Origin: Myxococcales bacterium
GTDB lineage: Bacteria; Myxococcota; UBA727; GCA-2721815
Assembly (NCBI GenBank): GCA_002721815.1
Contig: PBLQ01000011.1
Span: forward strand, 234,885 to 298,884
Length of the DNA stretch: 64,000 nucleotides
Reading direction: 5' to 3'
The notes below the pieces were generated by a model. The model saw nothing but the letters and a program-made list of their open reading frames with translations, ran no database searches and was not told the DNA's origin. Positions 450-20,500 of the stretch are shown here, one piece after another. Each line of letters starts with the position of its first letter. Positions within the stretch are counted from its first letter, which is position 1. Position numbers and translations under genes: made by a program.

Positions 450-1367
450 TTGAGATTTTTTGTGGTATTTTCTGTTTTGCTCTGGGTGGCCTGTCCTTCA
501 ACGCCCGAAGGGCTAGGTGAAGGCGAGGCCTGTGAAAGCCACAATGCATGTGCCACTGGCTTGAAATGTGAAAATGGCACCTGCACCGCCCCGCAACCAA
601 ACCCCGATCCGCCCCCCTCCAAGAGCGATGCCGGACATGCGTCCCACGCATCTGTTGACGCTGGCGTCTCTGCTTCCCTACCCAACATCGATGCGGGCCC
701 TCCCTTGGTGGCGACCGATGCGGGTACAGCGCTCATCCCACTGGTGGATTCGGGTTTGAATGACACTGAAGATTGTACCGCCACTTGTACCGAACGAGAA
801 TGGGTGTGTGGTCAAGTCTGTGGCGAGGCGTGCGGCACTTGTACAAACGGCGAGCTGTGCGGCAATGGCAGTTGTTGGTCATCCCAAAACGAGTTAAATT
901 GTGACACCTGCTCTTTACAACTCACCCTCACGCAAGCCACGCGGGTGAACGGGCAAATCACCAACGTGACCTTGGCCATTGATTATGCGCCCACGTCCTT
1001 AGAACCACTCCCGCGACTCATCGATTTGTACCTCAACATCGATACCACGACGCAGCCTTTACCGGTCACCGAAGGAGACGCGCTCACCCAAGCCAATAAA
1101 AATCTCTCGGCAGACCCCCAAACGGGCAACCTCTGGTTGGATGGTGGTGCGAACACGCTTCGGTTCCTCGCCTTTTCGGCAGGCAACACCAACACCATCG
1201 ACGCAGGTCGACTGTTGACCATCAGCTTCATCGTACAACCGCTCCACGAACAAGCCTTGGTTTTTTCATTGGTGAAACGAGAAGAAAACTTTGCGCCGCC
1301 CGAAGCGGACCAAGCGTTATATGGGCAAAACTACGATACGGCGGTGGTGGTATTTCCGAACGAGTAG
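450..1367 (+). CDS. Cys-rich DAG-repeat lipoprotein with C-terminal cohesin-like domain
   Basis: Predicted exported lipoprotein of 305 residues, function unknown. The start is a TTG at 450 with AAAGGA at 438-443; the nearby ATG at 431 runs into a stop after five codons. A hydrophobic signal ends in a lipobox-like VAC (Cys15). Next come a Cys-rich stretch (about 24-48), a low-complexity linker with repeated DAG/DA units (about 50-105), a second Cys-rich block with the pattern CGQVCGEACGTC (about 115-147) and a beta-rich C-terminal domain (about 150-305). The last two parts are paralogous to the lipoprotein at 36187-37191. The C-terminal domain contains RFLAFSAGNTNTIDAGRLL, which aligns column by column with segments in three other window proteins and has the look of a cohesin/CBM-type beta-sandwich. 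A weak promoter is possible upstream (TTGAGG at 396-401, TCTAAT at 417-422, 15 bp spacer). It converges on the selenoprotein gene, with 5 bp between stops. Confidence 0.8.
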   Translation: MRFFVVFSVLLWVACPSTPEGLGEGEACESHNACATGLKCENGTCTAPQPNPDPPPSKSDAGHASHASVDAGVSASLPNIDAGPPLVATDAGTALIPLVDSGLNDTEDCTATCTEREWVCGQVCGEACGTCTNGELCGNGSCWSSQNELNCDTCSLQLTLTQATRVNGQITNVTLAIDYAPTSLEPLPRLIDLYLNIDTTTQPLPVTEGDALTQANKNLSADPQTGNLWLDGGANTLRFLAFSAGNTNTIDAGRLLTISFIVQPLHEQALVFSLVKREENFAPPEADQALYGQNYDTAVVVFPNE

Positions 1368-1372
1368 AACCC

Positions 1373-3091
1373 TCAGTCGTTGATGGCGTCTACAATCATG
1401 CTGCGCAGCGACTGGTAGTTAGAAGTCGTATTGAGATTGTTGGTGGTACAGTTAAAGGCCCCCACGAACTCATTGTGTTCATCTAAAATCACCACATCCC
1501 GGTAAGCCGCTCCCCAATCGCCCTGGACATTTCCTGGATCGTTTAGCCAGGGCAAGGTGGCCCCACTGTGAATGGCCCCGGTACTCCCAGAAGTGTTAAT
1601 CCCCAGTATCACCACGGCGTCCGCAGGCACCGTTGCGTCGCTTTGTAAATCTGCAGCTAAATCGTTGAGCCGGTCAAACTGACCGGAGCAGTAGCCTCAA
1701 CCACCGCTCCCAAAATACCACGCCGAGACCCTCCCGAGGTATTGCCTGGGTGAAAATGACTGGCCGTTGGTGGGCGAATAAGGATTGGTATCTACTAAGT
1801 TGAAATCGCTCTTGGCGTTCGCCCCTGCCACCGGGCCAATGGCTTGGCCAGCATCGGCAAAGGCAACGGCAGCATCGAGTAAGTCGAGGGTACTGCCGGC
1901 ATCCATGTCCTGGGCCGTTTGCCCGGCATCGGTACCAGCATGGCTCGTTCCGGCGTCCATCACAGCGGCACTCATCCCCGCATCGGGTTGGGCACCCAAT
2001 GAGCCGGCATCGGGGACAGGCGGGTTTTGTCCAGCATCGTGCTCCATTGCGCCACCGGAATCTTCAGTGACAGCGCCCGCATCGGTTTCGCTTTGCCCGG
2101 CATCCACCACCGCATTGCAGTCCACCCCGTTGGCGTCCAGTTCGTACCCGGGGTCACACGCGCAGGCGAAGAACAAGGTGATGCTGTCATCAGGGTCATC
2201 AGCGGAATCGATACAGCTTTGGGCACACCCGCCATTGTTCGTGGCACATTCGTCCGTATCCGCACAGGCCACGCCATCTCCCTCGTAGCCTGTGTTACAC
2301 GCGCAAAGGCGATCACTGGTGGCGGTGGGTGCTTGGGATTCAGTTGCGTGGCTGTCACAAACAGACAGCGCACTGCACACGCGATCGGTGGTTGCTGTAG
2401 GAGCCAAAGACTCGAACTCATCACTGGTACAATCCGCCCATTCGGTGCACAACAGCCCATCACCAAAATAACCCGCTTTGCACACGCAAGTGGGCGCATC
2501 GCCTGAAACATCGGCATTGGTGCAACCAGCATTGATGTCGCACCCGCCGTTACTCTGCAGACATTCGTTGATGTCTTCGCAGCCGCATGAAGCCTCATCC
2601 AACGTGGTGCCTTCTGGGCATGTGTCGCAAGATACGCCGGCATCAGCTTCGGTGTTGGGAATGTTCGTACCAGCGTCACCCGAAGACCCGATGGCCCCAG
2701 GGCCGCCATCATCTTCGGTATTAGGAATGTTTGTACCAGCGTCACCCAAAGATCCGATGGCCCCTGTGCCGCCATCATCTTCGGACACGGCCCCGGCATC
2801 AATGCTGCCTTGCCCGTCAGTGGTGCCTTCGGTTCCCGCATCGGGACTGCTGCTGCCGTCCCCGGAACCATCGGTGGCTTCATCCACTTGCACGCAAACA
2901 TTTTGAAAACAGACCAAATCCCCATCACATTCCCCAATGGGACCACAGGGCTGCCCTTCACCACCGTGGCTAGATGAAGAATCGGTTTCAGGCGTGTCGC
3001 CGCTCTCCTCTGGAGGGGCTGGGCAAGCCGACAATATGGTGCATAGAAATGCAGTGAATAGGATGCGCGAGAACATAGAAGTTCTTAACAT
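1373..3091 (-). CDS. Selenoprotein P-like EGF/DAG-repeat lipoprotein with in-frame UGA (Sec465)
   Basis: Read with UGA as selenocysteine this is one 572-residue lipoprotein. It has a signal peptide and lipobox LSAC (Cys23), a Cys-poor Asp/Gly/DAG linker, EGF-like modules of the calcium-binding type (DINEC..., DTDEC..., about residues 175-330), a long DAG-repeat linker (about 330-435) and a thioredoxin-fold C-terminus. The UGA codon is at 1699-1697 (residue 465) in the context WYFGSGG-U-GYCSGQFDRL, so it forms a UxxC redox motif at the start of the first helix. The frame stays open for 107 more codons and encodes plausible thioredoxin strands (VVILGIN, RDVVILDEHNEF). UxxC followed by such a domain resembles the N-terminal domain of vertebrate selenoprotein P and its known bacterial relatives. 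A SECIS-like hairpin follows the UGA. A standard caller would stop at 1697 and discard the domain. Role inferred: surface-anchored thiol/selenol oxidoreductase. Start ATG 3091 is preceded only by a weak G-rich site. Confidence 0.85.
1670..1710 (-). promoter_or_regulatory. Bacterial SECIS-like element around and after the UGA codon
   Basis: On the minus strand the UGA (1699-1697) is followed, after 17 nt, by the apical loop of a perfect 7-bp hairpin: CCGGTCA, loop GTT, TGACCGG (1686-1670). A short loop beginning with G, 16-37 nt after the UGA, is the accepted shape of a bacterial SECIS, the SelB-binding signal. A second, partly exclusive hairpin pairs GGAGCGGT (1710-1703) with ACTGCTCC (1692-1685), 8 bp including one G-U pair, and puts the UGA itself in the 10-nt loop. 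Both lie in coding sequence, as expected for bacteria. Confidence 0.75.
2648..2779 (-). repeat. 66-bp in-frame tandem duplication in a DAG linker
   Basis: Two adjacent 66-bp units encode 22-residue copies built around GDAGTNIPNTE within the selenoprotein N-terminal linker. The copies differ at only a few bases, mostly synonymous, so the duplication is recent or kept homogeneous. Confidence 0.75.
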
Positions 3092-3248: not shown

Positions 3249-4238
3249 ATGAAGCGACTTTTCGCCGGCGCAGCAAACCTTCTGTTAGACCCCAGTATTG
3301 TCTTTTCTTTCGATCGCAATGGATTTGTGCGGCATCGCGTCTTTTTCGACCCGCAAGATTTAAAGACGGATATGAAGGACCGCGTTTGCTTGGTCACAGG
3401 GGCCAATTCAGGACTGGGCTACGCCACCGCCCTAGGCCTGGCGGAGCGGGGGGCTAAGGTTTGGCTGTTGTGTCGCAACCCCCAAAGAGGCGAACAAGCA
3501 CTGGCAAAACTAAAAAAAGAAACAGGCCACAATGATGTGCACTTAGCCTTGGTGGATCTGGCCTCACAATATAGTGTTCGCACTTTCTGTGAACAGTTTG
3601 AAGAAAAACACATCGATGTACTGATTCACAATGCGGGCATATTACCTGCGACCCTGCAAAAAACAGAAGATGGCATCGAGAGCACCCTGGCCACACATTT
3701 GGTGGGCCCCTTTCTGATGACCCATCTTTTGTTGCCACGACTCAAAGAAGGCAACCGCGCCCGAGTCATTTGGGTTTCTTCGGGAGGCATGTACACACAA
3801 AAACTCAACACGGCCGAACTCCAGAATCCACCCCCGCCTTTTGACGGGGTGCTGGCTTACGCAAGAGCCAAAAGAGGCATGGTGGTGTTGAACCGTTTAT
3901 GGGCAAAAGAGTTGGCCGCCCAAGGCATCATGAGCCACGCCATGCACCCGGGTTGGGCAGACACGCCTGGCGTCCAAACGTCCATTCCCGGCTTTTGGAA
4001 AATCACCAAAAAAATCCTGCGCAATGCCCAAGAAGGGGCAGACACCATCCTGTGGTTGGCCATTTGTGACAAGGCCCAGGCCACGCCGGGACTTTTCTGG
4101 TTCGATCGCAAACCCCGGTCTGAGTATTTATTACCCGGCAAAGCAGCGTCAGCGCAAGAGGAGTCGTCGTTGATGGTGGCACTGCGTCGTTGGACCAATC
4201 TGCAAGAACCAACCGAACCCAATCCCGCTAAGGAATAA
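3249..4238 (+). CDS. Short-chain dehydrogenase/reductase, DHRS12-like
   Basis: NAD(P)-dependent oxidoreductase of the classical SDR superfamily, 329 residues. The cofactor-binding TGANSGLG is at residues 50-57, the structural NAG at 128-130, the catalytic Ser within WVSSGG (about 177-178) and the YARAK catalytic Tyr204/Lys208. Outside these motifs, VSSGGMYTQKLNTAELQ, PFDG, HPGWADTPGVQ, the GADT(I)LWLA segment and the FDRKPRSEYLLPG tail closely follow the eukaryotic DHRS12 (SDR40C) layout, including the about 40-residue N-terminal extension before the Rossmann fold. That family usually lacks an assigned substrate; lipid or sterol-like carbonyls are a guess. The start has GGAGA upstream. It is divergent from the selenoprotein gene (157 bp apart), and its last 11 bases overlap convergently with the end of the giant lipoprotein gene, so neither gene has room for its own intergenic terminator. 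Confidence 0.9.
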   Translation: MKRLFAGAANLLLDPSIVFSFDRNGFVRHRVFFDPQDLKTDMKDRVCLVTGANSGLGYATALGLAERGAKVWLLCRNPQRGEQALAKLKKETGHNDVHLALVDLASQYSVRTFCEQFEEKHIDVLIHNAGILPATLQKTEDGIESTLATHLVGPFLMTHLLLPRLKEGNRARVIWVSSGGMYTQKLNTAELQNPPPPFDGVLAYARAKRGMVVLNRLWAKELAAQGIMSHAMHPGWADTPGVQTSIPGFWKITKKILRNAQEGADTILWLAICDKAQATPGLFWFDRKPRSEYLLPGKAASAQEESSLMVALRRWTNLQEPTEPNPAKE

Positions 4239-7200
4239 TCAGCACCCCGGAAAAGGTCCACATGGTACTCCAAATATGAGTTAATCCGGTACCATCGGTG
4301 TTCATTCGATACAGGCGGTTCTGCTCCCCACTCGGCCACGCATAATTCACGGCACTGACGTACAAATGGCCATTGGGTTCATCAAGGGCGATATAACGAA
4401 TACTGGTCAAATCATCTATGGAACCATCCGTGGCATCTGCGTGCTGCTTTTCATAAATGGTGACCGGATTGCTGCCATCGTGGTCCATGCTCACCACTTG
4501 CGTCACTTGTTCGTAACCCGTGGCAACCACATACACGCGGCTGCTCCCCACTGCCACCTGCTCGGGTTCATTGTCGGAGAAGTGATACAGTTTCGTTGGT
4601 GTTGCGGGAAAAGTCGTTCCATCCCCGACAGAAACCACATTAAGACCTGAACTATAGGTGGTCGGCTGAATATTGTAGGTGCTGAAAAACAACTGTCCGT
4701 TGTAAAAGCCCATGCCTTGCGACCCGAAGCCACTCGTGACATTCAAATCAGCAACAATCTCCACATTGCCATGGCTGCAGTCAGCAACAGGGCACCGCTG
4801 GATGTAGCCCCCGTAGGTACTGGAATAGTTGATGAACCAGTAAAGCTCCCCGGCGTCGGGGTCTAAAGCAAGCGCATGAGACGTGGTATTGGACTCAGAG
4901 CCAGGCAATTGGACCTGATGATCGAGGATTTGCTCAGCAGAAATATTGTTTTCACCATTGGTGTTGTAATCCGCAGGCAATTGAATTTTGGTGATGCCTC
5001 TCATGCCATTTCCGCCACCTAAGTACACCGTGTTGTTGGCTGCATCAGCGACAGCGCCATACCAATAGCTTAAATCGATACCAGACACGCGGTGCTGCCC
5101 AATCTCATTGCCATCACTGTCCATCATGTGCAGCACTGGAATGTGAGTCATGGCGATAATGGTGGGATGTGGTCTGGTCGGCTCAGAAAAGGTCACGCCC
5201 GCATTTCGGTCGCCACTCATGGTCACCACACATGAATCGCCGGAGCCGGCACAGTCGCCGGTCCATTCTGATACCGCGGCAAAAGGCCCGGCCGCATAGG
5301 TGAGTGTCACGGTTTCACCGGGCGAGAAAGTGTAGGTGCAATCACTGCCCTCCAGGCCGCAAGAAATACCAGCAGGGCTGGAGGTGACCGTCGCGTTACC
5401 CGTCACCGAAAACGTTAAGGTACTGGGTTCATCACAGGTGGTGTTTTGGTAGGACGGTGTCAGCAATGAAATGCCACCCACGTTTGTCATTTCCTCATAG
5501 GCTTTGGTGGCTACATGGATACTTCCATCGTCAGAAAGCGCCAAGCCGGTCAGTTCATTGCTGCTGAAATACACCCGATCGGTCATCATGGTCGCTTGAG
5601 ATATTTTAACAATCTCGTAATTCCAACGTTCGGCAGCGAAAACATTTCCATATTTATCAACTTGAAGGTCAAACACGGTCGACAACTCAAATCCCAAATC
5701 GGCTTCAAAAGAATAGTAGCCCCATGGGCTCAACACGAACTTCTGAATGGTGGGCTTACTCATGTAAGACACGTACAGATCGCCTTGAGGAGAAACTGCA
5801 AGACCACAGGGGCCGTCTTCGTCGTAAGTGATTTGTGTCGAGGTGCCATCGGGCTTAATGTGAGTAACTGTATATGCACCGGAATCTGCAATGAAAAGGC
5901 TACCATCTGGGCCTATCGCCACCCCTTCTGGGGATGTGAACCCATCACCCACAGTGGTGATGGTGCCATCGGGGGCCACTTTTTTAACCAAAGCATTGCC
6001 TGCATCAGCCACATACACACTGCCATCAGCGGCCAGCGCAATACCTCGCGGCATGGAAAAACCTGAACCGATATCGGTGACATTTTGTTGTGGGTCGATC
6101 TTTTTCACCGCGTTTAAAAAGGCGTCTGTCACGTACAGGCTGCCATCCGATCCGAGAGCCAACCCCGTGGGCTCTTTCAAACCAAATTCTCCTAAGGCTG
6201 TAGCAGAAAAAGTTGTGGCAGCCGGGTCTACCCCGCCCGTACTGGTGGTCCCTCCATCACAAGGTACACAGCTTCCATTTTCTGCACGTTCGTTCATTTC
6301 ACAATAGCCAGCGTTACAAAATGTATCTTCACCAGTGGCGTCCTCGAGTTGGTTATTGGTGGTCCCCGGTGGACAAGTGACACACTTATTATCGAGCAAA
6401 TACTCGCCTTCTTGGCATAACGTGATGTCGCAGGTGGTGTCACCGCCACTGGCGGGGTCGCCGGCCTCATTGATCGAGCCAGCTTCACACGGCACACAGA
6501 CCGCCCCCGAAACGTACTCATCCTCTTCACAAATCCAAGGGTCACAATCCGTATTAGCGCCCGATGCGTTATCGCCGGCATCGTTGGTGGACCCCATGGG
6601 ACAAACCTCACATCGGTTTTCCACCACGTGGTAGCCCTCATCGCAAAGCGTGGCGGTGCAGCTGGTGTTTTCGCCCGTGGCCTCATGGCCCCCTTCCGCG
6701 TTGGTGGTCCCTGGCGGGCAAGGCGTACAAGCATTATCCACAACGTATTCATCGACCTGACAAATAATCGCAGTACAAGAAGTGTCGATGGGTTCGGCCG
6801 TCCACACCTGGACCTCCGAGGCACTGGGCACAGAGGCATAAACATTTCCAGATGGCCCCACCAACACATCGCCCATCAATGCATCCCCGGCTCCTACGAA
6901 ATCGGTGTATCCGGCATGCGACACCTTACTGACGGTCGTGCTGACTTGTTGTGTGGAAGTTTGATAAGTGATCTCGCCGTAGTTTACCCATATTTCCCAA
7001 CCAGAGAACCCTGAGATTGCTACGAGGATAAGCCGGTCACCGCTTTCAATACTTAAGGGCCCTTCCGCCCAACTTCGGCTTTCATTGGTGTACTGAGTTC
7101 TATCGGACCCATCGCAAGGCGGCCTTGCCGTTCCCAGGTGGGTTTGAACGCCGTCCGACAGTCTCTCGTGGTAAAGCGCCACGTAAGAGTAGGTGCCGCA

Positions 7201-10200
7201 CCCGCCCCAGCCGTGATCACGAATAGAGACCATCCAGTCTACGCTGTCGAGGTAACCTGTTTCTAGGGTAACCGCCATGTATTCTTGACCACACCATTGA
7301 CAGGCCTCGATCACATTGCTCGATGTCACAGTCTGCGAATCACTGGTGCTGGTCGTAAATCCCTCTGCAAGGTAGAGGTTACCCGCCGCGTCGGTATCCA
7401 ATTTCGCTGGGACGTCGTATCCGCTCCTGGAGAATTCCGTATCCTCATTCCAGTACCCATAGGCATCTCTTAAAAATCGAGTTGTGTCATTTGCACTGCC
7501 GCTGGAGACATAAAGGACGTTTTGTGGCGTCACGCTAACCGCAACAGGGTCCATCGTTGCACCGATATATCCAGAGGAGAAAACGTCACCATTCTCCATG
7601 AACATGTCACCATGGTACATGCCTCCATCAGCGTCATGGTGCATGCCCGCCTCATCTCCGGCCCAACCCCCATCACCAAGCCCTTGCCCGGAACCAGCAT
7701 CGTGTTGCGCGTTGGCGGCAGGCGTTTGAAACCCATCAGCATCAAACCAGATGATTCCCGATGCGCCTTTGTCTGCAACGTAAACGATGCCATCGGCGCC
7801 CACATCCACGTCCACGGGTTCCACAAACATGAGTTGGCTCACCATGGTTTCACCCACCGTGTCGATTTTGTGGATGCGCCCCGAACCAGAGTCAGCCACA
7901 TACAAAGCGTCCTGCGGTCCGATTGCGATTCCAGCCACACCGGCGAACCCGGAAATCACCACCTCAGCGGACAAACCATCCGCCGCGATTTTTCTGACCG
8001 TTTGCGCGACAGAATCAGACACGTACACCGCCCCCGTGCTGTCCATGGCCAACCCGTTTGCTGCACTCAAACCACCGTTAAAATAGGTGCTGTATGTGTA
8101 ATTCGTCATCGAGAGGTCGGCGCCCCCGTAACTCTCAGTGCCTACTTCACAAGGGACGCACGCCCGGTCCAGAGCGTACTCTCCCTCTTCGCAAAAAGTG
8201 GGTTCACAGGACGTGTCTACGCCAGAAGCATTGTCAATGGAGGCCCGTTGCGTTCCAACCGAACAAGGCACACAAGTGTGATGCACCACATGCTCATTTT
8301 CTGCGCACAAGATCGTATCACATTCGGTATCCACCAAACTGGCGTTATCGCCTGCCACATTGACCTTCCCCAAGGGACACGGCGTGCAATAGTTCCCCGA
8401 CACTTTTTCGTTCTCCAGGCAAAGAATGGGGTCGCAAAAGGTGTTTGCTCCAGACGCGTCATCTCCTGCCACATTGTCGGAGCCCGTTTCGCAGGCGATA
8501 CACGCATGGTCCTGTACCCGCTCGTCTGCCCCACACAGAATCGGTTCGCATTCGGTGTCGTCACCTGTTGCATTGTCGCCAGCCTCATTTTGCGTACCTG
8601 GTTCGCACAGATCACAAATGTGGTTATTCACTCTAAAGTTCTCAAAACAGAGCGTGTCCGTACAGGCCGTATCCGCAGAGGAGACGGTCAGTTTCATCAC
8701 GGACATCGAGTTACCGGCATCCCATCCGGCGTACACCATACTCCCGTAGTAGACATCGCCATTGCTGGTCATGGCCAATCCTTGAACAGAACTGTACTCG
8801 TCATTCACCAATACTTCGGTGGTGCCGGCAGCTGAAATCTTGGAGACCGTACTGTAATCACCCACAAACACGCTCCCATGTTTATCTACAGCGATATGTC
8901 GGGGGTCATAAAGTTCTTCGGCCACGGTCACGATGTTGCCGTCATAATATCCATAAGCGTCAGGAAGGCATTTCACGATTTTGCCTGAGCCCGAGTCACC
9001 GACATACACCACGCCATTATCGGTCACTGCAACACTAATTGGATAATCGTAGTTATAACCCACCGTGATGTAATCGTATTGGGCGTCACCTGCGTCGTTA
9101 AGTGCTGCCCCAAAGTTGTCGGGACTGATTTTATAAACCATTGCCTGAGTGCTATCCACGACGAAAAGGTCGCCATCCGGACCCAAGGCCAGATCTTCGG
9201 GACGTTCGAACGCAATGGGACTCTCGGTCACCACACCATCACCATCGATCTTTTTCACCCTCCCCTCAGTGGGATCCGCCACATAAACGTTTCCGGCCAC
9301 ATCCATGACGACACCGTGCGCCTCTACCAGATTCGCTTCTAGTGCGGATGCTTCTCCAGAAGCGCTCAACCGGGTCACCCCGCCACCAGAGCCCTCTGTC
9401 ACCACCACCGTACCATCATCGGACACTGCAAGGCCGGTGAAATATTGTAGACCGGATTCTAGGTGAACCGAAGGCATGTAAACGACGGCCGATGAATCGT
9501 CACCTGGCGGATTGGTACTACCGATCACACAGTCTAAGCAGCCGTGGTCTGATGCGTATTGGTTTAACCCGCAAGCGTTGATCTCGCATTCGGTATCCCC
9601 GCTTGCAATTTCATCACCGGCCACGTTCACAGCGCCCGCGGGACACCCCTCACAAAAACCATTGATGACGTATTCGTTTTCCAGACAGTGGGTTTTGGGC
9701 TCGCAACTGGTGTTAATGGGGCCGTACGTGTGGCGCTCAATCCCCGGAATATCGTATCCAGTCACATAAACCTGCCCGTCAGCGGTCACCGCCATATCTT
9801 CAAAATAGGTACCGGAAAGCACTTCGTCGATGGTTCCATCTGCGTTTCGACGGGTAATTCGCACATCTTCTTCGTAGGAAACCATGTAAACCGCCCCAGC
9901 GGCATCGATTTCAAGCTGATACCCACGATAGTTCGCGTCGATCACCTCGAGTTCACTTTGGTCATCACTGATGTGCACCAAACCGGATTGTTGGTCTACC
10001 ACGTAGATTTCTCCCGCTGGCCCCAGGGCCATTTCGGAGGGTGACGCCAGTAAATCTGCCCCGAAAGTAGTGAGGGTGGAACTGCCCGCATCAATTTTCC
10101 GAATCAGTTCTGCGCCACTGTCAACGATATAGACCGTTCCCTCTTCACTAATTTCGATGTCAGAAATCCAGCCAAAATCGAAGCCAAACTCGATGAGGTT

Positions 10201-13200
10201 CGTTCCATCAGTGTTCATTTTGAACAATCGATTGGAACCAGAATCCGCAATGTACACGGTCAACCCATCAGCGCTGAACGCCAAACTGTCCGGGTAGTTG
10301 AAATAAGTAAAAATTTGGGAGGTTGTGCCATCACTGCCAATGGTCCAAAAATTATTGTCGTAATAGTTGAAAGCCCACACGCTGCCATTAGGGGCCACCT
10401 CTACGGTGGTGGCATCGTACAGCATCTCACCCACCGTACCCGTTCGCGAATAACCGGTTTCCGCCGAATCATCTCCAGCGTCATTCACAAAATGTTTTTC
10501 ACACGGAACGCATTGGTGCTGAATGACATATTCGTTGGCCGCACAATACGTGATATCACATTGGGTGTCGTCGCCAGAAATCACATCACCCGGCGCGTTT
10601 GTGGTGCCCGCAGGGCAAGCCACGCACAAGTGGTTCAACACGTACTCGTCCTCTGCACAAATGGGGGTGTCGCACAAGGTATCGACACCCGAAGCATCGT
10701 CACCCGGTTCATTGGGGGTGGCAGGATTACAGGGTTCACAATTGTGATTGACCACGTTTTCATTTTCCGCGCAAAGAATGGGCAGGCACTGGGTGTCTTC
10801 AGCATAGGCCAAATCACCTGCGAGTCTGGTGGTTCCGGGCGCGCATGGGGTGCACAGGTGGGCAGCTACGAAATGGTCCGCCTCACACACCACGGGCTCG
10901 CAATAAGTACCCGTGTACCCAGCGTCACAAACACAAAGGGCTTGGCCTGTTTCATCGTTGCAAGTACTGTTATCGTGACAATCTAGGTTTGCGGTATCGC
11001 AACTGGCCATGGGGTCTGGGGGTGGAACAACTACTGTGGCCAAATAATTTACCACCCCGTTCAGCGCCAAATCTCCATCGCCAGCAAGGGACTGATCAGC
11101 CCATTGCCATGCCTCGCCCACCGGCCGCAAAAGTGGTTTTTCACCCACCAAGGTTTCCGTTTCATAATAACTGGTCAACAAGGGCAAATGAAACGCGCCC
11201 ACCACGATGTGGTGTCGGAGGATCCGCACAATGTCATCTTCGAGCAATAGGTCATTCACCTCGCCTAAGCCTCGAGTACTCGCCAAAGCACCAAAGGCGG
11301 CATCGTTTGGCGCAAACAGCGTGTACACGCCGCTGGCAGCCAAGGTTTCAGCCAGCCCAGTCTCATTGAGGGCATGGGCTAGGAAGCTCAGATCATCATT
11401 GCCCGCTAATACTTCGCTGATGGCCAATGTGGGTGCGCCCTCAGCCTCGCTATTGGCCGTAAGAACGTATTCACCCACCGATGAACCAAACGCAGACACT
11501 TCAATAATTGCCGGTGTCAAACCCGTCACTTCCAGGTCAGAAATGACAGAATGCAACCCAATGCCACCGTTGTCATTGGAGCCCAGCATGTTCAAATTCC
11601 CATCCGGACGAACTCTGTAGGCCGCTAAAATGGTATCTGAACCCTGTCCACAAAAAGGCAATGTTTCAAAATCGTAAGTCCCGGGGGTTAACCATGCAAA
11701 GTAAAAATCGCGATCATTGGTGGCATTGAAGCCTCCGTATTGTTGGTCGTTTCGCAAAAGCATCCCGGCCGTGGCCAAGGAATCGTTGCTTTCCGTCTCT
11801 GCATTAGCGGGTGCACAGTACCCGTCTTCACAAGAAAGATTTTCACACACGCTTTGGCAGCTTTCATTTTCAGTACAATCGGTCGCCCCCACGTAGAGCA
11901 AGTAAGGCCCGGTGACGCCATTTTGCCCATTGACCTGAATTTCGTAGCGCCCGTTCCGTTCTGGTTCAAAGTGTAAGAGTCGGGCGGGGCCTTCTCCCTC
12001 TGCCACTGCAACCAAAACGCCCGAGGGGTCCCTCACTTTGATCATCGTATTGGTCGAATCGTCGCAAACAGGCAGGGTTTCGATGGTGACCGGAACCCCC
12101 AAGGTAAGGTTGACGCTGTACTGGTCCTCATCGGTGGCGTTGGTAATGCGCGCCCAACGGGTATCTCCAACACTTAGATGATTGAGGGTATTCATACTGT
12201 CATTGGGTTCTACCTCGGTGGGATGAATAGGTGTGCAAACGCCCATGGCCTCAACGGTTTCGCAAGAGAACACATCACAGGGGCAATCTGTTTGTTCAGC
12301 ACAGAAGAGCGGGCCATCACGATCGATGGCCAAAATATAGGAACGATCTAAACTCCCACCGTGGGTCTGTACCTGGATGTAATATTTTCCATTCTCAGGG
12401 ATGACAATATCATCGATGCGAGACCAAATACTCTCCCCATCGTTATCGTTATAGGCGATCATGGCACGGGACTCATCACCTTCAGCATCAAGCACTGCCC
12501 CATTTAAAAACTGAACAAAAGTGTCAATTTCGGTGCCACAGTTGCCGTGGGTTGAAACGGCGATGGTATCTCCAGCATGCAGGTCCATGGCGAACCAGTC
12601 GGCCTCCCCGGGCTCATCGATACGGGCGCGAATCACCGTTCCTGTTCCAATATCGTCGATCACCATCGCCGTGCCAGACGTGCTGATGTCTTCGAAAATT
12701 TCGCATTGATCAGGTTGGGCACCGCACACAAAGTAGGGTGTCCCCTCACAGCCAGAAGCGGTGCAAATATCGTTTTCAGTGCAGGCATTATCATCAAAAC
12801 AACTGCCTCCCAGCGGTACGCCATAAACCTTACAGGTGCCATCCACTGGGTCGCAGGCTCCCAAGTCGCAGGCACTGCTGTCTTGCGTACAGTTCTTTTC
12901 GTATCCCATACAAATCTTGGCACCGCCCGCCCCGAGCACACACACATCGTTTTCCGTACATGCGTTTCCATCATCGCAAGCATCTCCCAAAGCAATTCCC
13001 TCACAAACACCGCATCGAGTGGCCGTTTCGAGATCGGTACACGCGCCCTCTTGGCAAGTGGCAGCAGAGGTACAGGGGTCACTTGATTCGCAGGCCAAGC
13101 CGTTGGGCATCGACACCACATCGCAATTTCCATTGGCTGGATTACAAGTTCCAGCCTGGCAAGCGTTTCCGTCTACCGAACAGTCTTTGGGTGCGCCAAT

Positions 13201-14523
13201 GCAGTGACCCGCAGAGCAGTAATCTTCAACCGTACAGAAGTTTCCATCATTGCAAGCTGTCCCAAATTGGGCTGGAACCGAAACGCAGTTGCCACTGGCC
13301 TGGTCGCAAGAACCGAGCAAGCATCCGTCTTCAGATCCACTACAGATAATCGGTTCGCCCACGCAGACTTCACCGAGACAGGCGTCATTTTCAGTACAAC
13401 GGTCACCATCACTGCAGAACGTCCCATCCGGTTCCCCCACGCACTCACAGGCGTTTTGGGTCACCGTACACGCCCCTTCGCTACAAATGTTGACCGTACA
13501 ATTGTCTGAGTCATCGCAGCTCGTTCCATTGGGCTGCGCCGGTCCGTCACAGGTGCCTGTCTCTGGCGTACAAAGACCGGTTTTACACTCTGTCGCGCAA
13601 TCTTTTACGCCTTCGTGGACACATTCGCCCCCCAAACAGGTATCGCCAAGGGTACAAAGATTCCCGTCTTCACAAGGCGTCTCATCCGCCACAGAAATGC
13701 GCTCACAAGCACCATTGTCTGTGTTACATTGTCCCACCCGACAAGCGGTATTCCAACTGCTGCAGTCTTTGGCTTCACCCGTACAAATTTCGTCTTGGCA
13801 GCTGTCGTTGACCGTACACGGATTCTGGTCATTACAAGCGGTATCATTGGCAATGCCGGCGCAGGAGCAGGACGGTACCGGCTCTCCTGGGACACAAGCC
13901 CCATCGGCACAGACGTCACCATCTGTACAAAAATCGCCATCGTCACAGATCGCCCCTTCCTCAACCGCGGTCGCTTCACATTCACCGGTGTTGGTATCGC
14001 AAACCCCCACCGTTTGACACTCCACATCTAAACCGGAGCAATCTTTAGCGGTTCCCACACAACTTCCCGCGGAACAGGCATCGAAAACCGTACAGGGGTT
14101 CTCATCATCGCAAGCGGTCCCGTCCTCCGCATCTTCGCAACCCGGATCGGGACGCACCTCACCATAAATGGGCGCCTCTCCGAGGCAAGTACAACCCTCA
14201 AACTCGCCTTCATAAGGGACACAAATAGAAGCACTGCAAAACAAACCACACATGCAATCCTGGGTTCCTCCACATGTTTCGCCTAAGATACCCGTCCCGC
14301 CCACGCACACGTTGGGACAATCCCCTTCTTGAGGGATGCAAGACGGTTCGAGCGCATCAAGGCCACCGTCGAGAAAGGCGTTGATGATGTCTTTGGGATC
14401 TTCATCGGTGTTGTCCGTACACGCAGTAAAAAGCATCAAACTCACACCCAGGGCAATCCCCAGCTTTCGCTTGGCGCTTTGAATCGTGGGGGCGGTTGGC
14501 CCAAAACACTTAATCCAACTCAT
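4228..14523 (-). CDS. Giant lipoprotein (3431 aa) with Cys-rich repeats, PPC, FAS1 and five beta-propellers
   Basis: Last gene of the surface-protein operon. The start is the ATG at 14523 (AGGAG at 14535-14531, 7-nt spacer); an in-frame start further upstream would lack a signal peptide. Lipobox LFTAC (Cys35). Order of parts, rough residues: Cys-rich CDDxxxCTxxDxC modules (40-600); three pre-peptidase C-terminal-like beta-sandwiches (604-740, 763-880, 907-1028); a fasciclin FAS1 domain (1030-1165); an EGF-like module (1166-1205); then about sixteen roughly 45-residue Cys repeats of the type C..NEYV..H.C.PC..GT.N..GDDASG.DT.C, interrupted by four NHL-type propellers (about 1358-1605, 1678-1954, 2138-2581, 2770-3025). 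A bacterial immunoglobulin-like 'divergent repeat' (3031-3118) and a YWTD/LDLR-like propeller (3121-3431) end it. Nothing catalytic was recognised. Likely a surface adhesin or binding scaffold. It begins 11 bp after the stop of the 2027-aa gene. Confidence 0.88.
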   Translation of the reverse strand: MSWIKCFGPTAPTIQSAKRKLGIALGVSLMLFTACTDNTDEDPKDIINAFLDGGLDALEPSCIPQEGDCPNVCVGGTGILGETCGGTQDCMCGLFCSASICVPYEGEFEGCTCLGEAPIYGEVRPDPGCEDAEDGTACDDENPCTVFDACSAGSCVGTAKDCSGLDVECQTVGVCDTNTGECEATAVEEGAICDDGDFCTDGDVCADGACVPGEPVPSCSCAGIANDTACNDQNPCTVNDSCQDEICTGEAKDCSSWNTACRVGQCNTDNGACERISVADETPCEDGNLCTLGDTCLGGECVHEGVKDCATECKTGLCTPETGTCDGPAQPNGTSCDDSDNCTVNICSEGACTVTQNACECVGEPDGTFCSDGDRCTENDACLGEVCVGEPIICSGSEDGCLLGSCDQASGNCVSVPAQFGTACNDGNFCTVEDYCSAGHCIGAPKDCSVDGNACQAGTCNPANGNCDVVSMPNGLACESSDPCTSAATCQEGACTDLETATRCGVCEGIALGDACDDGNACTENDVCVLGAGGAKICMGYEKNCTQDSSACDLGACDPVDGTCKVYGVPLGGSCFDDNACTENDICTASGCEGTPYFVCGAQPDQCEIFEDISTSGTAMVIDDIGTGTVIRARIDEPGEADWFAMDLHAGDTIAVSTHGNCGTEIDTFVQFLNGAVLDAEGDESRAMIAYNDNDGESIWSRIDDIVIPENGKYYIQVQTHGGSLDRSYILAIDRDGPLFCAEQTDCPCDVFSCETVEAMGVCTPIHPTEVEPNDSMNTLNHLSVGDTRWARITNATDEDQYSVNLTLGVPVTIETLPVCDDSTNTMIKVRDPSGVLVAVAEGEGPARLLHFEPERNGRYEIQVNGQNGVTGPYLLYVGATDCTENESCQSVCENLSCEDGYCAPANAETESNDSLATAGMLLRNDQQYGGFNATNDRDFYFAWLTPGTYDFETLPFCGQGSDTILAAYRVRPDGNLNMLGSNDNGGIGLHSVISDLEVTGLTPAIIEVSAFGSSVGEYVLTANSEAEGAPTLAISEVLAGNDDLSFLAHALNETGLAETLAASGVYTLFAPNDAAFGALASTRGLGEVNDLLLEDDIVRILRHHIVVGAFHLPLLTSYYETETLVGEKPLLRPVGEAWQWADQSLAGDGDLALNGVVNYLATVVVPPPDPMASCDTANLDCHDNSTCNDETGQALCVCDAGYTGTYCEPVVCEADHFVAAHLCTPCAPGTTRLAGDLAYAEDTQCLPILCAENENVVNHNCEPCNPATPNEPGDDASGVDTLCDTPICAEDEYVLNHLCVACPAGTTNAPGDVISGDDTQCDITYCAANEYVIQHQCVPCEKHFVNDAGDDSAETGYSRTGTVGEMLYDATTVEVAPNGSVWAFNYYDNNFWTIGSDGTTSQIFTYFNYPDSLAFSADGLTVYIADSGSNRLFKMNTDGTNLIEFGFDFGWISDIEISEEGTVYIVDSGAELIRKIDAGSSTLTTFGADLLASPSEMALGPAGEIYVVDQQSGLVHISDDQSELEVIDANYRGYQLEIDAAGAVYMVSYEEDVRITRRNADGTIDEVLSGTYFEDMAVTADGQVYVTGYDIPGIERHTYGPINTSCEPKTHCLENEYVINGFCEGCPAGAVNVAGDEIASGDTECEINACGLNQYASDHGCLDCVIGSTNPPGDDSSAVVYMPSVHLESGLQYFTGLAVSDDGTVVVTEGSGGGVTRLSASGEASALEANLVEAHGVVMDVAGNVYVADPTEGRVKKIDGDGVVTESPIAFERPEDLALGPDGDLFVVDSTQAMVYKISPDNFGAALNDAGDAQYDYITVGYNYDYPISVAVTDNGVVYVGDSGSGKIVKCLPDAYGYYDGNIVTVAEELYDPRHIAVDKHGSVFVGDYSTVSKISAAGTTEVLVNDEYSSVQGLAMTSNGDVYYGSMVYAGWDAGNSMSVMKLTVSSADTACTDTLCFENFRVNNHICDLCEPGTQNEAGDNATGDDTECEPILCGADERVQDHACIACETGSDNVAGDDASGANTFCDPILCLENEKVSGNYCTPCPLGKVNVAGDNASLVDTECDTILCAENEHVVHHTCVPCSVGTQRASIDNASGVDTSCEPTFCEEGEYALDRACVPCEVGTESYGGADLSMTNYTYSTYFNGGLSAANGLAMDSTGAVYVSDSVAQTVRKIAADGLSAEVVISGFAGVAGIAIGPQDALYVADSGSGRIHKIDTVGETMVSQLMFVEPVDVDVGADGIVYVADKGASGIIWFDADGFQTPAANAQHDAGSGQGLGDGGWAGDEAGMHHDADGGMYHGDMFMENGDVFSSGYIGATMDPVAVSVTPQNVLYVSSGSANDTTRFLRDAYGYWNEDTEFSRSGYDVPAKLDTDAAGNLYLAEGFTTSTSDSQTVTSSNVIEACQWCGQEYMAVTLETGYLDSVDWMVSIRDHGWGGCGTYSYVALYHERLSDGVQTHLGTARPPCDGSDRTQYTNESRSWAEGPLSIESGDRLILVAISGFSGWEIWVNYGEITYQTSTQQVSTTVSKVSHAGYTDFVGAGDALMGDVLVGPSGNVYASVPSASEVQVWTAEPIDTSCTAIICQVDEYVVDNACTPCPPGTTNAEGGHEATGENTSCTATLCDEGYHVVENRCEVCPMGSTNDAGDNASGANTDCDPWICEEDEYVSGAVCVPCEAGSINEAGDPASGGDTTCDITLCQEGEYLLDNKCVTCPPGTTNNQLEDATGEDTFCNAGYCEMNERAENGSCVPCDGGTTSTGGVDPAATTFSATALGEFGLKEPTGLALGSDGSLYVTDAFLNAVKKIDPQQNVTDIGSGFSMPRGIALAADGSVYVADAGNALVKKVAPDGTITTVGDGFTSPEGVAIGPDGSLFIADSGAYTVTHIKPDGTSTQITYDEDGPCGLAVSPQGDLYVSYMSKPTIQKFVLSPWGYYSFEADLGFELSTVFDLQVDKYGNVFAAERWNYEIVKISQATMMTDRVYFSSNELTGLALSDDGSIHVATKAYEEMTNVGGISLLTPSYQNTTCDEPSTLTFSVTGNATVTSSPAGISCGLEGSDCTYTFSPGETVTLTYAAGPFAAVSEWTGDCAGSGDSCVVTMSGDRNAGVTFSEPTRPHPTIIAMTHIPVLHMMDSDGNEIGQHRVSGIDLSYWYGAVADAANNTVYLGGGNGMRGITKIQLPADYNTNGENNISAEQILDHQVQLPGSESNTTSHALALDPDAGELYWFINYSSTYGGYIQRCPVADCSHGNVEIVADLNVTSGFGSQGMGFYNGQLFFSTYNIQPTTYSSGLNVVSVGDGTTFPATPTKLYHFSDNEPEQVAVGSSRVYVVATGYEQVTQVVSMDHDGSNPVTIYEKQHADATDGSIDDLTSIRYIALDEPNGHLYVSAVNYAWPSGEQNRLYRMNTDGTGLTHIWSTMWTFSGVLIIP

Positions 14524-14533
14524 GCTTTGGCTC

Positions 14534-17500
14534 CTAATAGTTAACCGGACGGTTACTGTATCTGAAATACAAAATGATATCTTCAATCACTGGCTCATCG
14601 GCTGCATTGCTTATGCCCTCACCCATAATCCAGTGATTATCAGTGGCCGCTTCTTGAATACGAATGGGAATCATTAACTTCCAATCCAATGCCGACAGAC
14701 TGCGGTCGCGGGCGAAATAACGCCAGCAAGAGGATGCAGGGTCTATTTCTCCATTGGATTCCTGGGCGTTAATACAAGCCTTCATGGCTGCGCTCTGTGT
14801 CACGAACAGAGGCGGCACATCTTGTTGACCTTCAAGCGACTGTGGCGCGTAACCAATCACGTGATTGCGAATGGTGTATTGTACATCGGATATGGTTCCA
14901 AGCTCGCCGTAGGTAACTTCAGGTTCACAAGAACGTATAAAATCGGAAGAACCCCGAATCATTTCATACCGCACGAATCTGCCATTGGTAATGCTGTCTT
15001 GGTCATCCAAATTCTGACCAATGAGGTTCACTGCCAGGTTTCCGCCTGTATACGCATTGCTTTGCCCCACCATACGGTGATTACAAGACATGGGATCGAT
15101 CATCCACCGCGGTCCTGTTGGCGAGTTACGCAGTGTGGTCAACAACAATGAGAAAGGCAACTCAACTCTTTGGACCGCCATCTCACCCACCACGCGGCGC
15201 CGCAAATAGGTGGGCCCAGTAATGGCATTGTGGAACTGTTGCCCCGCGGTCAAGACTTTACCGGTTCGGCTGTCGATCACGTCTCGAAGGGTGGGGAAAA
15301 GAAGCTCCCGCAAAGAGACTCGAAGCACCTCAACATTCGAATAAGTATCACAATCGATGGACTCTTGCCCGCAATCGGCCAGTGCTTCATCCGCCAGCGT
15401 ATCCACAAAGTCTTTAATCTCATCGAGGGTGATGCTGGCCATGAGCTGATTTTGCAGCACCGTGGCCTGCCCCTCTGAGACATTGTAGTGATGCACGAAG
15501 GCGCGCAGCATTTTGTAAGCGATCAACCGAATCTCACGAATCTTGGAATCTGCCTCCATGGCCATTTTTCGACCATAAAGGATGCTGCCCGTTTCACGCC
15601 CCACCAAGTGGTCCACAACGAAGTTGACTTCGGTTTGGTACAACCGCGCGCGCTGTCGCACCTCTTGCTTGAGGTCCTCAATACTGGAGCCCACATTAAA
15701 AATGGATTGGCTCAGCAAACGAAACTGGGTGAGGATATCGTCTATTTCTCTAAACTTCGCCTGCATTTCAGCAACCATTTGTTTGTTTTCTTCGGCGTTC
15801 CCCGACTCCATTTCTAAGGAATCGTAAATCCAGTCCGCTGTGCTCATCGCCACATTGAGCCCGACCGGGATGAAATATAAGGATCGTGCACTCAACTTGA
15901 TGAACGCGGAGGCAATGTGCATGGGGCAATCGGTCCCGATACTGAACCCAGCCTGAAAGTAACAATCAGGAATGTCCCCCGACGCGTTTAGAATACCAGC
16001 AGTGGCATCCAACGTGTCTTTCACTGTAGATAATGCCGTGTTGATGGCCGTTTTTATGTTGAACCCAGTATGAATACCGTTTTGTAAACTGACAATTTCA
16101 TCAAGCTGATCATGCAAGATATCCAGTTCGCGGCGTAGGGTTTCTAAATCTCCCACCAACTGTTCTCGCTCCAGTTCTAAACTTGCTTTTTCTTGGAGTA
16201 GCTCTCCCATGGCCCCCCCCACACAGGCTGTTTCTTTGCCATTGATGTTACTCAAAACCAAAGAGGCATCGCCGCTGGTATCTCTGAGTACACATCGCGG
16301 CGCTTGGTTGAGCGGATCGGTATTATTGGTGGCATTGTTGGTGGTACCTTCCAGGCCCCCGGGCGCACTCAAAAAGGTGGTGGCTAAGTTTGTGCAATCA
16401 TGGTTGTTCAAGTCACTTGTGATGTTGCCCCCCAAGGCCCCATTGGCGCGAATATTACCAATGTTCTCGCACGTGTGAACGTACGAGCCCCCTGGGCAAG
16501 GACCGAAGCCCTGACGGTTAGAAGTGCCGTTAAATTTACACTCAGCAAGCCAAATGACTTTTTCGGGCGTATTATAATTCTCTAACAAATAGTCGCAGTA
16601 GTCACGGTCCCCGTCTGCATCCAAATCCCCCACATTGTCCTGTGCGTCCACCACGCCATCTCCGTTGATGTCATCTGTAGGATCTTCCAGCAGAAATGTC
16701 GTTCCGCACATTTCAATGAGATGGGTTTCCATATCGATACGGCTCTCTAACAGACTGCCTTCGAAGCTGTCCAAGTCGCTCAATGCATTTTGTATTTCCA
16801 CCACCACATCATCGAAGTGTGCTTCCGCCGCATCGATCAATCCATTACTGCCCGTCAATTGGTCTTGATAGTATTCCCAATTCGAGAGGTCCACGTTATC
16901 GTTCTCAAAATAAACGACGTTGGAGGTCACCCCCAGTTCGTTCTTATTGGTATTGAAGATGCTGATCAATTCTTGGCCCTGAGTCAGCGTCTGCGCGGCA
17001 GAGCCCAGATAAGAAAATGATTCCCCCTGCCATTCTTTTTGCATGGCCATCAAATAAACCTGCAAAAGATAGTCTTGTTGCAGCGCGTGTTGCGCGAAAA
17101 TAAAATCCCGTTCTCCAGCATTCAACAATACGCGCCGCTTCAAATCAGCGAGTTGCACCATGGCTTCCATGCGGTCGGACAAGACGACCTGCACCATATC
17201 TAACCAATCATTCCCCATTTGCTCGAAACCACGCATGGGCCATGAATGGAATACTTGGGCAGAAATGGGATCGAAGATGAGATCCACTGCGTGGTTGTAT
17301 TGGCGCACCGCTTCTCGAAGCTTGCTTTGCTTGTAAGATAAAGCTGCGCCTTGCTGAAATGGATTAACTTGGTGCCGATACAGGGTCATGAAGGCGTCCG
17401 ACAGCTCTTTGTCACCTCGAAACTTGATGGATTGAATCAAATTTATCCAAAAGCGACTGTGTTCCTGGTACGTGAACACAGCTTCGTAACTGGTTCGCTC

Positions 17501-20500
17501 CGCCGATGGTGTTGTGGAAGGTAAAGTGGCCACACAACCATCGATGCCCAGAGTCTCCGGGCAATACAGCGGCCAATCCGGTCTTGGCGAGCAGGCGTTG
17601 GTCCCTGAGCACCCAGATACCGCATCGGAAGATACCCATTGGTTTAATAAAGCCTTGCGATAAAGGTACATGCCGCATAAGGCCTCTTTTTCCTCAACGC
17701 ACGCAACGGTATCCTCGTCGTGCACGTCTAACTGCCCGTGGACCACGCAGTGTCCGTTTTGACAAAGGGCATCATCAGCCCCATGCAAGGTCACACATTG
17801 GGCGTTGGTGGTACAGGTCTCTTCGCAGGGCAGGACCCATGAGGCCAAAAATTCGTGAACGGTCAATCGGTCCCAATTGCCCCCTTGCTGTGTCCCACTT
17901 TCCAAAGCCACCAGCGCATCCTCCACACTCTCCTCAAAATTCAAGAGTTCAGAGAAAATACGATCCCCACCGGATAAAACATCATTCAAATACGCTTGGT
18001 AACTTTGCTCACTGGCAAAACTGGAGGTGTCTGTGCAGAAATCCGAAATCACTTGGTCCAGTTGCGGCCCCCATTCGGGGAAGCTGTCCAGCTGTTCATC
18101 TGCTGGAAGGAGTTTAAAGTTGTTATCAAGCGCACACTCTGAAATCTCGTCCCATGCAACCACAGCCTCTGGCACTTCGCTTGCTTCGCATGGGTGGTCG
18201 CCACAGTATAACAAACGCAAACCGTTTAACGGACAAACGCAAATGGCTTCATCTCCACTGCCCCCTTCACTGGGCATTAAACAGCGGCTGGTATTCGTGG
18301 GGTCTGGTGCACACTCGGAGTAGACGTGATTTTCCTCTAACCCGAAAGGACGTCCCGCAGCCACGGGGCCTGAGGCCGTATGTATTTTTTGCTTCCCAGG
18401 GACTTCGCAACGGCAGATTTGCTCGCAGAAACAATCCTCGGTGCCCTCTGCGCACAACTCTTGATTGCTGTTCACGCACACCAAGGTCCCTGCATTGTCA
18501 CTGTCTGGATTCGCACAGCTGTTATTGGCCGCGCCGCCCCAAAGTAAGGTTGAATCGTCCATGGTGAGCTGGTCTAAAATAAAATCGCCTTGAATACCCA
18601 CCGGTGTGAGTTCTGACCCGGGCAGAAGACCGGTAATCTTTTCACGATAGGCGCCGGAATAGCGCTTCATAGACTTATCGTAGGGACCATAAAATTCGAT
18701 CTGTCGCCGTATATTGCGCCCAAATCGATTCTTGACTTCTAAGAATGATTCACAAGCGCCACTAAGCCCATTGGAGGCGTTTTCGCATATGGAAAAGTCT
18801 GCCGGGGTGTCGATGATACCGATCAACCTCAGTAAAGTGCTCTCTTCATCGTAAATCCCCACCAGTGGGATTTCGTTCCCGGACCAAATGGTCTCGCCAT
18901 TTTCATCACGGGTTCCTTCATCGCCGCGGGTAAAAATCAGGCTCCCATTCCCATGTAGATTAGCCTTCACTAAACGACCAGACATCAAATCGATAATGTC
19001 CGAGCCCGTTTGTTGTATGTTTTGTTCAGCCAGTAAGGTGTTCCAAACTGCGGGCGAGTCGGTGATTTCCATCTTCATCTCAACTTTGAGGGCCTGTAAC
19101 CCGTTGATGGGGGCGCTGGGGTCGTCCATATAAGCGTCGAGGCTGCCAACGTATTCTCCGGACACTAGGGGAACCGTTAACAAAATGCTCAATCGATGGG
19201 AGTCGCCATTATCGAAGATGGCCATTAGTTCTGCAGGGTAAACACCAGGGGACAGGCTTTCAACCGCTTCGTTCAGCTGAAAGTCCATACTGGGGGTGGA
19301 CGCCCCATTGATCACCCCAAACGGCGACAAGAGTTGAAGCCATTCTTCCTCGGGCTCGATGATACAATCACGTTTTTTCTCTTCACACTCTGCGGTAGTT
19401 GTTCCCAGTCCCAAGGCTTCAGGCTCAGTTTCGCAGTTGGTTCCCACGGCCAAGGTACAAGCAAGGTCTTGTTTAATGCCGTACTCTAACTCGAGCCGGT
19501 ATCCAAAACTGACCGCCGCATTCCCCACCACTTGCTGGCGGGGTTTTAAATCGATGATGGCCATTTCCGATGCGGAGACATTGTTAATGGGATCCATCCC
19601 CACCTGAGACCGACCGAAGCGAATCACGTAATCTTCAGGAACAAAAATGAACCCTTCTTCAGCCGTCCCCTGCGGCAAAGCACGGCACTTGTTGGTATCC
19701 GCACAATACCAACGGTTGCCGGGACAATCGATGCTGCGATAACATTTGGGTTCGCATTTCCCTAAAAAGCAATAAGCACCGGCCGGACAATTTTGGTCCA
19801 CTTCGCAATGGACCTCTTTCACAGATTCCGCGGGAATGGATTCACATTTGCCTCGCTGTCGGTCACAGGTTTTAAGCGCTCCGACACATTGACGATCGAG
19901 ACCCTCCACCTGGGCCTCTCTAGAATACGGAATCATACCGCACTCGCGTACGCACACGTTGCGCTCTTCATCACAATAAGCCCCTTGGCCGCAATGGGCG
20001 CTGGTCGCGCATCCGGTGAGGCTTTCGAGGTCACAATGCCAATATTGGGTGCCATTTAAACTACAACCCGGCTGAGAACTAGAAACACATTCTTCACAAA
20101 TGGGTTGTTCCAAAAAGGCGAGAATACTGAGGTCTACATCGAAAATATCGAACTTATTGTTGCCGTCTTGATCCAGCAGTCGGTCAAGACTGGCTTCAAT
20201 GGAGCACGAATTCGTATTGTCCCAGGCAGGCTGTAAGCCCTGGATCCAAAAACTAATCGCCTTATCGAGCAGATTGAGGTCCATGCGGAAATGGGTTGGC
20301 TTACACCAAGCATTATTGGCCAAAGGTACACAGGTTTCACCGATGGCGCACGATTCGGGCGTCGGCTGTCCCGAGTTTGCGTTCCAGCAGGAAACCTCAC
20401 AATAGGACTCCCCGCTGTCTCGGGCCACGCAGACCTCATCAGATTGGCAGGCACTTGGATTGCCATCGCAAGACACCCGTTCACCGCCACCCTGCCCCTG

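Follow-up and report, generated by a model that had tools for sequence, protein, structure and literature searches.

A divergent, long-stalked TUGYCR-family protein of a Myxococcales bacterium is a predicted selenocysteine-containing surface lipoprotein

The window (the whole stretch of 64,000 nucleotides analysed here) carries on its minus strand an open reading frame of 464 codons (3091..1697) that ends at a TGA at positions 1699-1697. Beyond this TGA the same frame stays open for 107 codons, up to a second TGA at 1375-1373. With the first TGA read as selenocysteine (Sec, U) and a family profile matching across it, the complete gene (1373..3091, minus strand, as are all the parts listed here) is predicted to encode a selenolipoprotein of 572 residues in which Sec is residue 465. 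The translation starts with a signal peptide (3023..3091) whose lipobox, LSAC at residues 20-23 (FLCTILSAC23), gives a signal peptidase II site at LSA-C23; a second ATG, at Met6 (MFSRILF...), is a possible alternative start. EGF-like repeats follow at residues 177-325 (2117..2563), where EGF_3, cEGF and FXa_inhibition match above their Pfam cut-offs (36.1, 36.4 and 34.3 bits), and then a low-complexity linker rich in DAG (1832..2110); the entire region upstream of Sec holds 14 DAG triplets. The C-terminal part is a thioredoxin-fold domain of the TUGYCR type (residues 428-569, 1385..1810), which contains the putative Sec codon (1697..1699) in the motif U-G-Y-C and, 17 nt after it, a candidate bacterial SECIS (bSECIS) hairpin (1670..1686). 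Among Pfam profiles run on this protein alone only the EGF repeats pass, with AhpC-TSA and Redoxin below threshold. Ordinary annotation would cut the protein at 464 amino acids, ahead of its catalytic head, as the preliminary description of this DNA had anticipated.

Other genes of the window and of the host genome (G000) share some of these features. The convergent gene at 450-1367 (plus strand) encodes a DAG-rich lipoprotein without Pfam match that has a Cys-rich cap like that of the selenoprotein. Next to the selenoprotein gene, on the minus strand, lies a gene for a giant protein of 3452 amino acids (4228-14586) that has NHL repeats, a Fasciclin domain and, below threshold, a match to PPC; a 2027-aa ORF at 14534-20617 gave no Pfam match, and a second giant protein (3896 amino acids; 24507-36197, minus strand) has laminin-G/concanavalin-like domains. 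The host genome is predicted to encode three or more additional Sec lipoproteins that are secreted. A second TUGYCR Sec copy (L136, contig C67, 5675-6520, minus strand) lies downstream of a BamA/Omp85-like ORF of 942 amino acids and adjoins two DAG-rich lipoproteins, which have a Cys-rich N-terminal cap in common with the window protein. A likely Sec lipoprotein of TlpA/ResA type (L138, contig C58, 4032-4751, plus strand; AhpC-TSA 57.9 bits) has the motif AFW-U-GSC, the lipobox LMGC and a hairpin after the UGA, and another, peroxiredoxin-like (L139, contig C45, 4752-5393, minus strand; AhpC-TSA 77 bits), has the motif PLANTSG-U-TT, the lipobox LMAC and an 8-bp hairpin after the UGA.

The domain belongs to a family that is already known, modelled by NCBI as NF053656 (redoxin_TUGYCR, 'TUGYCR motif thioredoxin fold (seleno)protein'). 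This NCBIfam profile matches the window protein with 150.4 bits (E 3e-44; curated cut-off 100 bits), residues 428-569 covering positions 2-146 of its 146, and also matches two paralogues in the host genome, the C67 Sec copy (180 bits) and a copy with Cys (150 bits). The 142 matching residues run across the TGA, which agrees with the earlier observation that the frame is the same and the protein sensible on both sides; the UxxC motif then proposed (GSGG-U-GYCSGQFDRL) is likewise read in the sequence, within SAWYFGSGG-U-GYCSGQFDRLN. A table from 2026 that covers 119 families of prokaryotic selenoproteins does not list the accession, and the name 'TUGYCR' was not found in the literature searched. 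Literal T-U-G-Y-C-R does not occur in the window copy, which reads G-U-G-Y-C-S and keeps the UGYC core; other members vary too, with S, P or V after U and S, K, Q, V or G for R. The difference is therefore variation within NF053656, whose curated criterion is score.

The window copy thus has the domain of the family over its full length, with the UGYC motif and Sec, but departs from the consensus in several places: SGGUGYCSGQ stands where the consensus has HATUGYCRSQ, LND replaces LQD, DVW is missing and FNCTT, with an extra Cys, is found instead of the FNLTT of other members. Because of these departures the copy may have changed function. A tree pairs the window copy with the C67 copy (86/85) and puts the Cys paralogue on a very long branch of unsure placement. 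We regard the window protein as a divergent member, with an unusually long stalk, of a family that was modelled recently. This family may be the same as the 'Prx-like 2' selenoproteins described from the GOS data in 2008 (PMC2398784): compared by description, both have UxxC, are distant Prx homologues with low similarity to pfam04592 and are fused to extra domains, although 'Prx-like 2' includes UxxU members and none was seen among the TUGYCR copies here.

Whether the UGA could be decoded depends on the Sec machinery of the host, whose genome (4.6 Mb, 98% complete) was expected from the preliminary description to carry selA, selB, selC and selD. All four are present over cut-off: selA (426 bits) and selB (270 bits) form one cluster on contig C51 with the gene for tRNA-Sec (selC; 71.7 bits, ARAGORN anticodon tca), and selD (419 bits) lies on contig C14. 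Searched by tblastn with the domain, 13 of 195 phylum genomes gave matches (12 besides the host). TGA occupies the Sec column in 14 phylum copies, and the full-length matches have exactly one in-frame TGA each, with the exception of one paralogue in the host genome. This paralogue (C19, L033) has TGC (SIWYFVHAS-C-PYC) and is the only Cys homologue found; the other, on C67, has TGA at the same place as the window gene. When 84,980 species genomes were scanned, 74 loci were returned, 73 of them with TGA at the Sec column; going by record titles, the loci come from Myxococcota, Planctomycetota, Verrucomicrobiota, Krumholzibacteriota, Eiseniibacteriota, Thermodesulfobacteriota and unplaced bins. 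In the remaining TUGYCR locus (L108, Nannocystis pusilla Na p29) a frameshift immediately ahead of the Sec codon marks either a pseudogene or a sequencing error. Homologues with U and with Cys at this position, which the preliminary description had called for, thus both exist: 87 copies from at least 6 phyla carry TGA and one carries TGC, the 87 being the sum of the phylum and genome-collection sets, with some records in both (76 are distinct over 51 nt). Each of the 13 phylum genomes that carry a UGA copy possesses selA; since the gene occurs in 152 of the 195 phylum genomes overall, this link proves little alone, and we take it as consistent with Sec decoding rather than as strong evidence.

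Downstream of the UGA the transcript can form the hairpin CCGGUCA-GUU-UGACCGG (1686-1670), with a 7-bp stem (1686-1680 paired with 1676-1670) and the apical loop GUU (1679-1677). The published bSECIS model asks for a loop of 3-9 nt with G in its first two positions, a stem of 4-16 bp, a distance of 16-37 nt from the UGA and an MFE <= -7.5 (PMC13188914); with its loop GUU, 7 bp, 17 nt and -11.9 kcal/mol, the window hairpin lies within all these constraints. Because the single-sequence z-score of the 54-nt stretch around the hairpin is weak (-1.55), we relied on covariation and synonymous recoding. In the 14 phylum copies pairing over the seven pairs is 99% formed and five of the seven pairs have changed on both sides (10 double-changed cells), while none of 500 shuffles matched any of the covariation measures and sliding the partner by 1-3 columns lowered pairing to 33-61%. 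Over the 76 distinct sequences pairing reaches 91.5%, compared with 75.9% after shuffling (maximum 78.8%); pairing is weakest at 20-24 (62%), a place at which the loop widens to five bases. Synonymous recoding of the window sequence gave -5.0 +/- 2.1 kcal/mol against the native -11.9, with 0 of 200 recodings as stable, and across the family the z-score averages -2.5, 61 of the 76 members being significant at 5%. The Cys paralogue (CPYC) is without the hairpin, its MFE being -1.9 kcal/mol as opposed to -11.9 for the window. Part of the departure of the window motif (SGQFDRL for RGQFGLL) would then be the coding shadow of compensated changes in the stem.

Taken together, conservation, hairpin and machinery strongly support the reading of the in-frame UGA at 1699-1697 as a Sec codon. 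The opposite reading, in which this UGA truly terminates translation, or arose through an error in sequencing or assembly, and the frame beyond it has decayed or is translated on its own, can point to the final stop of the gene, which is also TGA, so that UGA does act as a stop in this host, and to the 464-aa product, by itself a complete-looking lipoprotein. We consider it extremely improbable: one domain family matches the frame on both sides of the TGA, the same TGA recurs in the 87 copies and in the independent C67 paralogue, the hairpin is conserved and the genome has the machinery for Sec.

The 'thioredoxin-like strands' that had been noted after the TGA are confirmed by an AF2 model of the domain (pLDDT 93.6). 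By sequence, a search of the PDB returned nothing below E 0.01; by fold (Foldseek), the nearest solved structures are ResA, TlpA/DsbE-type proteins and the pneumococcal Etrx lipoproteins, with E values for ResA/TlpA of 3e-8 to 3e-6. As in the ResA/TlpA/CcmG thiol-disulfide oxidoreductases, the family combines a thioredoxin fold and an extracytoplasmic location with a nucleophile at the N-terminal position of CxxC/UxxC, but it differs from them in having Sec for Cys, in the absence of a conserved partner gene nearby and at the cis-proline site. In the alignment and secondary structure, an invariant Arg-Asp (R107-D108, YRDVV) falls at this site, before beta-4, and appears to replace the proline. 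The most likely activity would be thiol/disulfide exchange of the ResA/TlpA type, by which disulfides or sulfenic acids of secreted proteins would be reduced or repaired.

The main alternative, rather unlikely in our view, is a Prx-type peroxidase that would reduce extracellular peroxides with its Sec/Cys and the invariant Arg. Weak matches to AhpC-TSA and Redoxin occur in 13 and 9 of 15 members, respectively (best E 5e-5), and R107 seems to correspond in position to the Prx arginine, yet the Prx motif PxxxTxxC is missing, the UxxC active site resembles that of disulfide oxidoreductases, and the best solved-fold matches are ResA/TlpA/DsbE rather than Prx. Judged from these comparisons, a disulfide reductase is the likelier of the two.

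The resemblance to the N-terminal domain of vertebrate selenoprotein P (SelP) proposed in the preliminary description is weak, and it is supported at the level of the fold but not at that of family membership. Both domains carry UxxC in a thioredoxin fold. However, Pfam SelP_N (PF04592) matches none of the TUGYCR genes at E<=10, and in nine genomes searched with it only two chance matches appeared, elsewhere (E 0.55 and 1.55). In hhalign, the family profile and the human SelP N-domain can be aligned along 129 columns, U facing U (E 2e-5 / 1.3e-5), and the score of 37.8 exceeds the best of 60 shuffles (22.1). SelP is thus alignable but no closer than TlpA-type proteins: two TlpA-like proteins of the host genome score 44.5 and 38.3 against the same profile, which indicates that the score reflects the fold superfamily and not a special kinship with SelP. 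For SelP itself, Lobanov et al. concluded on a common fold superfamily (PMC2397514). We found no solved relative of human SelP in the PDB and, in the literature searched, no paper on myxobacterial SelP-like proteins.

That the domain is a true bacterial SelP N-domain, sharing with vertebrate SelP an ancestry that excludes other thioredoxin-fold families, is in our view unlikely. The U-on-U alignment and its margin over shuffled sequences speak for it, as does the low similarity to pfam04592 noted for 'Prx-like 2' in 2008 (PMC2398784); in addition, SelP and the TUGYCR family both appear to lack the cis-proline, with [RK]D at the corresponding position, which is suggestive only. Against it stand the silence of SelP_N, the scores of the TlpA-like proteins and the C-terminus of the window protein, which has one internal UGA, ends 107 residues later and, unlike vertebrate SelP, shows no Sec-rich or His-rich transport tail. 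A role mainly in storing or carrying selenium, as in SelP, would fit a secreted Sec protein in a genome with several others, but a single Sec in a conserved UxxC active site, with U in nearly every species, argues for catalysis and makes storage very improbable.

In the window protein 442 residues, made up of EGF-like and DAG-rich sequence, separate the lipobox from Sec, the longest such stalk among the copies parsed. The lipoprotein anchor with a long stalk had been described correctly, and the idea of a catalytic domain moved to the tip of a lipoprotein as an unusual arrangement holds in part: the EGF/DAG stalk is particular to this copy and not typical of NF053656, but lipoprotein relatives are common. 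Many of these have the lipobox about 46-62 residues before Sec, and others have linkers of 100-230 residues. By eye, L043, L058 and L059 continue after the TUGYCR Sec domain with VPEP, a hydrophobic segment and an Arg-rich tail, resembling a PEP-CTERM sorting signal, and L042, L053 and L063 combine the domain with dockerin-like DxNxDG repeats. A secreted or surface-held redox head, as predicted from these sequences, is a recurring theme of the family. No gene neighbours are conserved beyond genus level, and none indicates a partner.

From these data we propose that the gene very probably encodes a Sec-containing thioredoxin-fold lipoprotein in which Sec465 is inserted by way of the hairpin and which is exported and anchored as a stalked redox head. 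As comparison of the copies suggests, SelB with Sec-tRNA-Sec would bind the hairpin just downstream of UGA1699 and direct Sec to residue 465; insertion at this residue is very likely. After export the protein would receive its lipid at Cys23 and become anchored, probably to the outer membrane. Lipidation and outer-membrane location are likely, with surface exposure and sorting to that membrane predicted from the sequence, and the EGF/DAG stalk may hold the enzyme head away from the membrane. Sec465, at the N-terminal position of a thioredoxin-type UxxC, is likely to be the attacking residue and Cys468 the resolving thiol.

Dozens of relatives would likewise lose their catalytic head under standard annotation. 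Thioredoxin-fold selenoproteins usually have many Cys homologues; because Sec, by contrast, is found in nearly all copies of this family (87 against 1 with Cys), its near-constancy suggests that selenium is truly required for the extracytoplasmic reaction. Two Sec copies are present in Nannocystis exedens DSM 71, a culturable strain in which the function is therefore directly testable. We also consider, as a quite unlikely extension, that the N-domain of animal SelP descended from the TUGYCR lineage of extracytoplasmic selenoenzymes or a close relative, a domain that several phyla would mount on the surface in various ways; if this were true, the ancestral function of SelP would be open to study in a cultivable bacterium.
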